In this document: positions 36,397-40,208 of the stretch, in pieces | Numbering within the stretch: the first letter of the stretch is position 1 | Layout: each line of letters starts with the position of its first letter | Assembly: GCA_027482225.1 (NCBI GenBank) | Contig: JAIXWD010000016.1 | Span: 206,050-270,049, forward strand | Origin: Bacteroidota bacterium | GTDB lineage: Bacteria; Bacteroidota; Bacteroidia; UKL13-3 | Reading direction: 5' to 3' | DNA length: 64,000 nt | The notes under the pieces: generated by a model | What the model saw: the letters and a program-made list of their open reading frames with translations, nothing else | Database searches by the model: none | What the model was told of the DNA's origin: nothing | Program-made: the position numbers and the translations under genes

Positions 36397-37062
36397 ATGG
36401 TGATTAAATGGTGGAAAATATTAGGTGCGCTATTGGTTTTATACGCACTTATCTGGGGGTTAATAACACCCATACCTAAGCTTGCAATTTTAGAAGAAAG
36501 CATACGTAACTTATTTTACCACGTACCCATGTGGTTTGGTATGGTACTATTATTATTAGGCTCAATGGTTAACGCAATTAAATTTTTGCGTAAAGGTTAC
36601 TTAAAGGATGATATCAAATCGGCACAACTTACAAACGTTGGAGTTTTGTTTGGTATGATGGGTATTGTAACTGGAATGATTTGGGCTAAAAATACTTGGG
36701 GTGCATATTGGACAAACGATCCAAAGTTAAATAGTGCTGCCATAGGTATGTTGATTTATCTAGCCTACATCGTTTTGCGCAGTAGCATTGAAGATGAAGA
36801 AAAACGTGCTCGAGTTTCGGCCGTATACAATATATTTAGTTTTCCCATTTTCGTGGTGTTAATTTTTATTTTACCCCGATTAACTGCTAGTTTGCACCCA
36901 GGTAATGGTGGTAATCCTGGGTTTAATAGTTATGATTTAGATAGCAAACTACGTTTGGTGTTTTATCCGGCAGTAATTGGTTGGACGTTAATAGGATATT
37001 GGATTGCTGATTTGGCCATTCGTAAAGAAATTATAAAACAAAAACAAATTGACAATGAATAG
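36397..37062 (+). CDS. ccmC: cytochrome c maturation haem-export protein CcmC
   Basis: CcmC binds haem with a tryptophan-rich periplasmic loop and loads it onto CcmE. The 221-residue protein has six transmembrane helices and the family marks: YHVPMWF near residue 41 (first haem-ligand His42), the WWD-like motif WGAYWTNDPK at 101-110, and SLHPGN near 168 (second His). It is the first gene of a tight ccmC-ccmD-ccmE cluster; the next start overlaps its stop by eight bases. The ABC components ccmA and ccmB are not in the window. Confidence 0.9.
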   Translation: MVIKWWKILGALLVLYALIWGLITPIPKLAILEESIRNLFYHVPMWFGMVLLLLGSMVNAIKFLRKGYLKDDIKSAQLTNVGVLFGMMGIVTGMIWAKNTWGAYWTNDPKLNSAAIGMLIYLAYIVLRSSIEDEEKRARVSAVYNIFSFPIFVVLIFILPRLTASLHPGNGGNPGFNSYDLDSKLRLVFYPAVIGWTLIGYWIADLAIRKEIIKQKQIDNE

Positions 37063-37222
37063 TATACTTAATACAATCTTGTTGCAAACACAAGTTGCTA
37101 CAGAGCAAGCTACATCTCTTAAATTTGAAGTTACGGTAGCTGTAATTGCCGTTATATTTATTGGTATTGTTGGATACTTAATTAGTATCGACAGAAAACT
37201 TTCAAAACTAGAAAATAAATAG
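37055..37222 (+). CDS. CcmD-like single-pass membrane protein
   Basis: A 55-residue protein from an ATG that overlaps the ccmC stop (ATGAATAG). It has a short polar N-terminus, one hydrophobic helix (VTVAVIAVIFIGIVGYLI) and a Lys-rich cytoplasmic end (SIDRKLSKLENK). The size, single helix, basic tail and position between ccmC and ccmE are those of CcmD, which helps release haem-loaded CcmE from CcmABC. CcmD sequences are too short and variable for a family assignment by motif, so the call rests on topology and position. It is easily missed by gene finders with a length cutoff. Confidence 0.75.
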   Translation: MNSILNTILLQTQVATEQATSLKFEVTVAVIAVIFIGIVGYLISIDRKLSKLENK

Positions 37223-37226
37223 AGCG

Positions 37227-37613
37227 ATGAAAAATACGCATATTACTATCATCGCTTTAATAGCTGTTGCTATTGGCGCTATCATTAGCACTTATGGTGA
37301 CTCAAGTACTTACGAGGGTTTCACCAAAGCAGCCGAAAACCCCGATAAAGAGTACCATGTGGTTGGTGTTTTAAATAAAGAAAAACCACGCGAGTATAAT
37401 CCGCAGTTAGACGCAAACTTATTTACATTTTATTTAATAGACGAGCAGGGTAAAGAAAGTAAAGTAGTTTATAGAGCCCCAGAACCTGCCGATTTTGAAC
37501 GTAGCGAAAAAGTGGTTTTAATTGGAAAAATGAATGGCGATTATTTTGAAGCCAACAAAATTTTGTTAAAATGCCCAAGTAAGTATAATGAAGGACAAGC
37601 ACCTCAAGGATAA
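37227..37613 (+). CDS. ccmE: haem chaperone CcmE, CXXXY variant
   Basis: CcmE carries haem from CcmC to the CcmF lyase. The 128-residue protein has an N-terminal anchor helix (ITIIALIAVAIGAIISTYG) and an OB-fold beta barrel with YHVVGVLN and FTFYLIDEQGKESKVVYRAPEPADFERSE read in segments, then VVLIGKMNGDYFEANKILLKC. The haem-attachment motif is the unusual part: where the classical protein has H-x-x-x-Y, this one has C116-P-S-K-Y120. Cys variants are known from some archaea, sulfate reducers and other bacteria and are thought to be a functional alternative that often lacks CcmH. It starts four bases after the CcmD-like gene, in the same operon. Confidence 0.88.
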   Translation: MKNTHITIIALIAVAIGAIISTYGDSSTYEGFTKAAENPDKEYHVVGVLNKEKPREYNPQLDANLFTFYLIDEQGKESKVVYRAPEPADFERSEKVVLIGKMNGDYFEANKILLKCPSKYNEGQAPQG

Positions 37614-37808: not shown

Positions 37809-40208
37809 GTGAACGAAGTACAATTTATTGGCGAACGACTGATATACGGAAACCTAGGGCATTTAGCCGTTGTAGTTTCATTTGGTACAGCTATTATCTC
37901 AACCTTTGCATATTTATTTGCTGCGAATAACCCCCAGGAAAAGTCGTGGCAAAAAATTGCAACAGCCGCATTTTATACCCACACAATATCTGTACTCAGT
38001 GTAGTTTTGATGTTGTTTTTAATTATTCGTTTGCATTTGTTCGAGTACCATTATGCTTGGCAACATTCATCTACTGACTTACCACTTGAGTACATGGTAT
38101 CATGTTTTTGGGAAGGACAAGAAGGTAGTTTTCTATTATGGATTTTTTGGCATGTAGTAATTGGTAATATATTGGTACGTTCAGCCAAATCATGGAAATT
38201 TGAAGTAATGGCGGTGGTAATGATGTGCCAAATTGTGCTTACATCAATGCTTATTGGGGTTAAAATTTTAGGATACAAAATTGGCAGCAGTCCTTTTGAA
38301 TTATTGCGCAATGCAATAGAAGGTCCAATATTTAAACAAGCCGATTACCTCAGTAAAATTAAAGACGGAAATGGGTTAAATCCTTTATTACAAAATTATT
38401 GGATGGTTATTCACCCACCCACATTGTTTTTTGGATTTGCCACCACCATTGTTCCGTTTGCATATGTAATTGCAGGCTTATGGAAACGTGATTATGTAGG
38501 TTGGTTAAAACCTGCTTTGCCATGGGCACTAATTAGTGTTATGGTGTTGGGTACAGGTATTATTATGGGAGGTTTCTGGGCATACGAAAGTTTAAGTTTT
38601 GGTGGTTATTGGGCCTGGGATCCGGTAGAGAATGCATCACTTGTTCCTTGGTTGATTTTAATTGCTGGTGTACACGTAATGATTATATACAAAACAACAG
38701 GTAATGCGTTAATTGTTGGCATGATACTGATTATTTCAACTTTCTTATTGGTGTTATACGCAACTTTTTTAACCCGTAGTGGTATTTTAGGAAATGCATC
38801 TGTTCATTCATTTACAGATTTAGGCATGAGCGGGCAGTTGTTGTTGTTTATGTTTGTTTTTCTTGGATTATCAGTTTTTATGCTGGTTAAACGTTGGAAA
38901 GAGTTACCACGAAGTGCCAAAGATGAAGATGCTTACACCCGTGAATTCTGGATGTTTATTGGCAGTTTGGTTCTAACTATTTCTGCATTTCAAATAATTC
39001 TAACCACATCACTACCTGTTTTTAATAAAGTGTTTGGAACTAATATGGCTCCTCCTAGCGATGTTATTCAACATTATAACAAATGGCAAATGCCAATGGC
39101 CATTATCATTGCATTACTTACGGGTATTGCTCAGTTGTTAAAATATAAAAAAAATACTAGGGAGGGATTGATTAATATTTTAACTCAAGCTGCTATATCA
39201 ATTGTACTATCTGCTGTAGCCATGTTCTTATTAGAACTTAAAAATTGGTTTTATGTTGGGTTAATGTTTGCTTCTGTTTATGCGATTGTAGCAAACTTAT
39301 TTACCATGCGGCCTTATTTAACTGGTAAGTTTAAAATGGCTGGAGCAAACGTTGCGCACATCGGTTTTGGATTATTATTAGTTGGTGTATTGGTTTCTTC
39401 TGCCAATAAACAAGTAATATCCATTAATCAAAGCGGTATGCAATTAAACCCCGAATTTGATGCACAAGCCAATATGGAGCATGTTTACCTTGAAAAAGGT
39501 AAATCTTTACGTATGGGTGATTATGAAATTGAGTATAAGGCAGACTCAACAGAATGGGTTAATAATTATTTTCAGGTACATTATAAAAAAATCAAACCAA
39601 ATTCTAATGAGGTTGATTATGAATTTGATTTATATCCAAATGCACAAATCAATCCTAAAATGGGATTGGTAGCAAACCCTGATACCAAACATTACATCAG
39701 CCATGATGTATTTACATACGTAAGTTCTGTGCCAAAAGAAAAAACAACCAAGTTTGTTCACGAAAAATTACATGAAGTTAAACTTGGCGATACCATATAC
39801 ACCAACGATGGTTATGCTATATTAGAGAACATAAACTCTAACGCAAAAGAATCTAACTTAGATGTTAAGAATTTAAGTTTGTTAATTGCTGCAGAGTTAA
39901 AAGTTTATGCATTAAATGGTACTTATAGTGCTACTCCAATGTACGGAATACGAGAGAATTCAGAGATTAAGTTTGAAAGTATTGTTGATGAAGCAAAGTT
40001 GAGATTTAAGTTTATGGGGGTTAATCCTCAAACCAAAACCATAACCATAGAAACTGCTGAGCAAGATACCAGTGGAGATTTTATTATAATGAAAGCTATT
40101 GTATTTCCTTGGATTAATTTTGTTTGGGCAGGAACTATTATCATGATTGTTGGCTTTCTATTGGCTATTTGGCGTAGATTGTCTGAAAATCAACGTTTGC
40201 GAAATTAG
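37809..40208 (+). CDS. ccmF: cytochrome c haem lyase CcmF-like protein
   Basis: CcmF takes haem from CcmE and joins it to apocytochrome c. The protein has about 800 residues (799 from the GTG at 37809). It has many transmembrane helices, the tryptophan-rich motif FGGYWAWDPVENASLVPWL near 270, an upstream YMVSCFWEGQEGSFLLWIFW block with conserved Trp and His residues, and MVIHPPTLFFGFA. The periplasmic domain (about residues 560-760) is followed by a last helix. The open frame begins at a TTG at 37779, but that codon overlaps the TATTTTTG promoter-like box at 37774-37781, so the GTG is the better start. ccmG and ccmH are not in the window. Confidence 0.9.
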   Translation: MNEVQFIGERLIYGNLGHLAVVVSFGTAIISTFAYLFAANNPQEKSWQKIATAAFYTHTISVLSVVLMLFLIIRLHLFEYHYAWQHSSTDLPLEYMVSCFWEGQEGSFLLWIFWHVVIGNILVRSAKSWKFEVMAVVMMCQIVLTSMLIGVKILGYKIGSSPFELLRNAIEGPIFKQADYLSKIKDGNGLNPLLQNYWMVIHPPTLFFGFATTIVPFAYVIAGLWKRDYVGWLKPALPWALISVMVLGTGIIMGGFWAYESLSFGGYWAWDPVENASLVPWLILIAGVHVMIIYKTTGNALIVGMILIISTFLLVLYATFLTRSGILGNASVHSFTDLGMSGQLLLFMFVFLGLSVFMLVKRWKELPRSAKDEDAYTREFWMFIGSLVLTISAFQIILTTSLPVFNKVFGTNMAPPSDVIQHYNKWQMPMAIIIALLTGIAQLLKYKKNTREGLINILTQAAISIVLSAVAMFLLELKNWFYVGLMFASVYAIVANLFTMRPYLTGKFKMAGANVAHIGFGLLLVGVLVSSANKQVISINQSGMQLNPEFDAQANMEHVYLEKGKSLRMGDYEIEYKADSTEWVNNYFQVHYKKIKPNSNEVDYEFDLYPNAQINPKMGLVANPDTKHYISHDVFTYVSSVPKEKTTKFVHEKLHEVKLGDTIYTNDGYAILENINSNAKESNLDVKNLSLLIAAELKVYALNGTYSATPMYGIRENSEIKFESIVDEAKLRFKFMGVNPQTKTITIETAEQDTSGDFIIMKAIVFPWINFVWAGTIIMIVGFLLAIWRRLSENQRLRN

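Follow-up and report, generated by a model that had tools for sequence, protein, structure and literature searches.

A Cys-type CcmE with a CPSKY motif in a Bacteroidota ccmCDEF cluster, very probably part of a CcmH-free System I* pathway

The window, i.e. the whole stretch of 64,000 nucleotides analysed here from the genome of a Bacteroidota bacterium, contains the ccmCDEF cluster, whose genes and main features are collected in Table 1 together with related genes found elsewhere in the same genome. The initial annotation, made from the sequence alone, had placed ccmC, a CcmD-like gene and ccmF beside a ccmE; this is correct, as indicated by the matches to PF01578, PF20077, TIGR04391 and PF16327.

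Table 1. Position of the ccm genes and of related features. Positions given without prefix are those of the window; G000 is the genome to which the window belongs, C designates a contig and L a locus.
Feature	Position	Strand	Description
ccmC	36397..37062	+	haem-handling protein, 221 aa; PF01578 66.6 bits, above cut-off
CcmC WWD-like loop, WGAYWTNDPKLN	36697-36732 (aa 101-112)	+	position of the WGxxWxWD loop
ccmD-like gene	37055..37222	+	small membrane protein, 55 aa; PF20077 CcmD_alt 43.2 bits and TIGR04391, both above cut-off
ccmE	37227..37613	+	haem chaperone of the Cys type, 128 aa; OB fold with a single TM helix; PF03100 above cut-off
CPSKY motif	37572..37586	+	C116 in place of the haem-binding His; Y120 at the position of the axial-ligand Tyr
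ccmF	37809..40208	+	holocytochrome c synthase, 799 aa; PF01578 and PF16327 above cut-off
ccmB	G000:C7:284335-284940		14 kb beyond the window; one in the genome
ccmA	G000:C3:290840-291484 (L136:4841-5485)	-	215-aa ATPase; ccmA is the best NCBIfam family, under cut-off
CXXCH protein	G000:C3, L138:2524-4455	-	644 aa, seven CXXCH and a C-terminal TPR array

The reading frame of ccmE opens with the ATG at 37227 and closes with the stop at 37613. The codons at 37572-37586 are TGC CCA AGT AAG TAT, i.e. CPSKY, residue 116 being encoded by the TGC at 37572-37574; C116 is the sole Cys of the protein. The identity of CcmE is given by its Pfam score (PF03100, 44.5 bits for a cut-off of 24.6), and in a profile built on 62 relatives H130 and Y134 of the E. 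coli protein (1sr3, 8ce8) are matched by C116 and Y120, respectively, C116 being also aligned with the Cys of the Desulfovibrio vulgaris CcmE (2kct). The codon and this alignment thus confirm what had first been read from the sequence, a Cys where the haem-binding His would stand. The AlphaFold (AF2) model of CcmE (pLDDT 86.3) presents an N-terminal helix (residues 3-23) and five strands forming an OB fold, so that the membrane anchor and the OB-fold periplasmic domain expected of a CcmE are both present. Compared with solved CcmEs (VIA), this model gives Z scores of 9.9 (1lm0/1j6q), 9.2 (1sr3) and 9.0 (2kct); however, unrelated OB folds give similar scores, so that the fold is a weak proof of a CcmE and the sequence profile a stronger one.

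The alignment of Bacteroidota CcmEs, which the initial annotation suggested, finds C116 and Y120, but also P117 and S118, invariant among the 62 relatives. CPSKY was present in every CcmE of the first set retrieved from relatives, and in a wider set the 123 distinct CcmE proteins all have the Cys, in the form C-x-S-x-Y. At the scale of the phylum, sampled by 395 evenly drawn genomes where CcmE was called by HMM (PF03100), 253 genomes are CcmE-positive and 249 of these match a KCPSKY pattern in their DNA, the positions of pattern and HMM generally agreeing among the matches listed. The four others comprise one TQCPSKY (G160), two TKCPSRY (G164 and G208) and one genome, G126, which falls outside this reading. 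Besides, two genomes under the HMM threshold (G253 and G391) nevertheless encode a CPSKY CcmE; G012, where the pattern occurs by chance and no CcmE is found, was rejected as a carrier of the Cys type. The Cys motif is the norm of the phylum and no peculiarity of this genome; His-type CcmE sequences, with which the Cys type could have been compared, are lacking in the phylum.

The neighbours of ccmE keep the residues on which haem handling depends. For CcmC the best NCBIfam family is TIGR01191 (ccmC), with a score under cut-off; it aligns to the E. coli CcmC (7f02) and retains both periplasmic His, H42 and H167, in columns conserved in relatives. In CcmF the four functional His (H202, H289, H333 and H517), invariant in 79/79 relatives, are present and the WWD loop GGYWAWDPVEN is intact. 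Aligned to the Thermus CcmF (6zmq), this protein has 799 aa versus 660, i.e. about 140 aa more. The extra length seemingly lies in the C-terminal periplasmic part, at about aa 540-765.

As the initial annotation had proposed, we searched the genome (2.72 Mb, 24 contigs, 99.92% complete) for ccmA and ccmB: both are present, outside the ccmCDEF cluster. The assignment of CcmA deserves discussion, since the TIGR01189 (ccmA) search, which yields 35 ABC ATPase matches in the genome and none above cut-off, is ambiguous alone. For the ATPase of Table 1 the identities LolD, GldA and LptB were ruled out by NCBIfam. The corresponding matches are found in all 42 genomes of the same class with a CcmE detected by HMM (own genome included, 395-genome search) and also in G253 and G391; in the remaining genomes of the class there is one weak match only (G296, 4e-27). 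In three genomes out of three from other classes, a ccmABC(D)EF operon opens with the best match to this ATPase, which stands directly upstream of ccmB. This co-occurrence with CcmE and this operon position identify the ATPase as CcmA. In the present genome its gene directly follows a run of genes which we take, from reading their sequence, to be lpxD, lpxC/fabZ and lpxA, and it is the last gene of this run in the 6 Bacteroidia checked (6/6). Around ccmB, no ABC ATPase was found within 1.5 kb at any of the 57 loci with ccmB, many of these loci being only partial.

This genome also contains substrates for such a system. Four cytochrome c (CBB3-type) domains score above cut-off, one protein carries seven CXXCH, and CXXCH patterns number 245 in the genome versus 132 in the reversed control; on these grounds c-type cytochromes are present.

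The initial annotation had supposed a Ccm pathway working without CcmH. In this direction, PF03918 has no match in the genome, while CcmA, CcmB, CcmC and CcmF are there; with the CcmD-like protein and CcmE they make up a full CcmABCDEF set lacking CcmH, a variant already described as System I*. ResB (PF05140) has no match either, thus System II (CcsBA/ResBC) is absent, and the only two PF01578 proteins of the genome are the CcmC and CcmF of the cluster. Across the phylum PF03918 exceeds the cut-off in 4 of the 395 genomes, and those inspected are Cys-rich, zinc-ribbon-like ORFs. Weak matches in a few genomes (L123, L124, L126-L130 and L132, mostly of family f18) were not counted as CcmH, since they fall on Cys-rich ORFs with repeated CxxC; they are probably not CcmH. 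These ORFs are 250-330 aa long, with zinc-ribbon-like CxxC and a conserved FxCxCGxC. As candidates for CcmG, thioredoxin-like proteins are too common for a search to single one out, and among the ccm loci scanned none appears as a constant neighbour. The extra length of CcmF could be a candidate substitute for the work of CcmH. The absence of CcmH is not diagnostic, because about one third of Cys-type bacteria possess CcmH (PMC3601427).

System I* is the Cys-type System I defined in archaea and Desulfovibrio, the bacterial phyla named being delta-proteobacteria, chloroflexi and firmicutes (PMC3601427). This variant is able to produce cytochrome c in E. coli in the absence of CcmH and CcmG, and the Cys of its CcmE binds haem (PMC3601427). 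CPSKY is there the majority motif of Cys-type CcmEs, in 25 of 36 bacterial genomes. At the level of sequence, all the tested features of System I* are found in our genome: the Cys, the Tyr of CXXXY, no His-type CcmE, CcmA, CcmB, CcmC and CcmF, and the absence of CcmH. We are therefore highly confident that this CcmE is part of a Cys-type System I* lacking CcmH, the standard form among the Bacteroidota having a System I, in which a Cys-linked haem would pass from CcmC to CcmF. CcmC and CcmD would present haem at the periplasmic face, where C116 would accept it, most likely by a bond with a haem vinyl carbon, Y120 serving as putative axial ligand of the haem iron. CcmA and CcmB, although encoded away from ccmCDEF, would then free the holo-CcmE, and CcmF would hand haem on to the CXXCH apocytochromes with no need for CcmH. 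How the haem is bound, whether covalently, and in what order it is passed on are those steps suggested by experiments on Desulfovibrio and Methanosarcina. For the linkage in a Bacteroidota CXXXY CcmE, which the initial annotation considered not well characterised, this judgement held up: our literature search found no paper reporting a haem-binding test on any Bacteroidota CcmE.

Alternatively, C116 might be a non-covalent thiolate ligand of haem only, CcmE being then a simple haem relay without covalent intermediate. Such a behaviour is reported for the Cys-type CcmE of D. vulgaris, which binds ferric haem non-covalently in vitro, unlike that of D. desulfuricans (PMC3884852), so that covalency is perhaps not general; besides, it has been argued that a stable thioether could not easily be cleaved afterwards (PMC3601427). 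On the other hand the D. desulfuricans CcmE was demonstrated to bind haem covalently (PMC3601427), and for Methanosarcina acetivorans haem on CcmE requires Cys120, the protein being haem-stained solely when this Cys is present (PMC9084895). We thus consider a purely non-covalent role of C116 unlikely. Another possibility is that the CcmE of the window is a degenerate paralogue and that a working His-type CcmE is located elsewhere, which would account for the missing His and which the initial annotation regarded as what could overturn its reading. However, PF03100 gives a single match in this 99.92%-complete genome, so that no second CcmE exists, barring a gene lost in an assembly gap; the conservation of the ccmC-D-E-F cluster and the invariance of four of the five motif residues (C, P, S and Y) in the 62 relatives also make a degenerate copy very improbable. 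As for a His codon misread by sequencing or assembly, nothing speaks in its favour and its probability is practically nil, because the CPSKY of near-identical relatives (96-98% identity, L035-L038) comes from assemblies made independently, which rules out another codon at 37572-37574, and because CPSKY recurs in nearly all sampled CcmE-positive genomes of the phylum.

CcmC displays a second change, in its WGxxWxWD loop. The last Trp of this loop (W125 in E. coli) is replaced in 67/67 aligned Bacteroidia rows, where the window's own CcmC is counted three times via overlapping loci; N, S or G are mostly found instead, but also Q and others, and the position of the E. coli Arg128 is mostly occupied by Lys. 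Among the CcmCs from other classes of the phylum, 30 of 33 keep both the Trp and the Arg. As both groups of classes have a CPSKY CcmE, the change of Trp is unconnected with the Cys of CcmE. The WxWD motif has been called a hallmark of haem-handling proteins (PMC10457321), and since the CcmC loop lacks a classical Trp here, haem loading could differ in detail. We tentatively propose, as an idea that has some chance of being right and that we do not favour, that Bacteroidia possess a distinct subtype of System I*, with a CcmC devoid of the WxWD Trp and changed from R128 to Lys, a CcmA encoded in the lipid A operon and a long CcmF working in the absence of CcmH. If so, the positioning of haem by CcmC for a Cys-type CcmE may depart from what is modelled for E. 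coli and Desulfovibrio.

On the side of the literature, Cytophagia and Chitinophagia are listed among the System I classes in a 2025 paper whose topic is CcmCD (PMC12077264). We found no paper on the Cys motif in Bacteroidota CcmE, which may well stand in the subscription literature, including the original System I* paper. The loss of Trp in CcmC and the move of ccmA into the lpx operon may be newer as findings than the Cys of CcmE. So far System I* has been known mainly from archaea and sulfate reducers; our census points to a Cys-type maturation without CcmH as the rule for the System-I Bacteroidota. As many of these are culturable aerobes, they would be useful hosts for questions on the release of Cys-bound haem and on the functioning of CcmF without CcmH.

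Among the known systems, the one described here compares best with the System I* of D. desulfuricans and D. vulgaris: in both a Cys replaces the haem His with a Tyr four residues on, CcmA to CcmF are present and CcmH absent, and most members of the group have CPSKY (PMC3601427). It differs by the phylum, by ccmA and ccmB being unlinked from ccmCDEF and by a CcmC without the last Trp of WxWD. The archaeal Ccm of M. acetivorans likewise has a CXXXY CcmE and no CcmH (PMC9084895); it has no CcmD and a split CcmF, whereas here a CcmD-like gene accompanies an undivided, long CcmF (799 aa). With the System I of E. coli (CcmABCDEFGH) are shared the OB-fold CcmE, CcmC, CcmF and CcmAB, the haem-ligand His of CcmC and CcmF being conserved; at variance with it, the HXXXY CcmE and the obligatory CcmH and CcmG of E. 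coli stand against a Cys and no CcmH in our genome.
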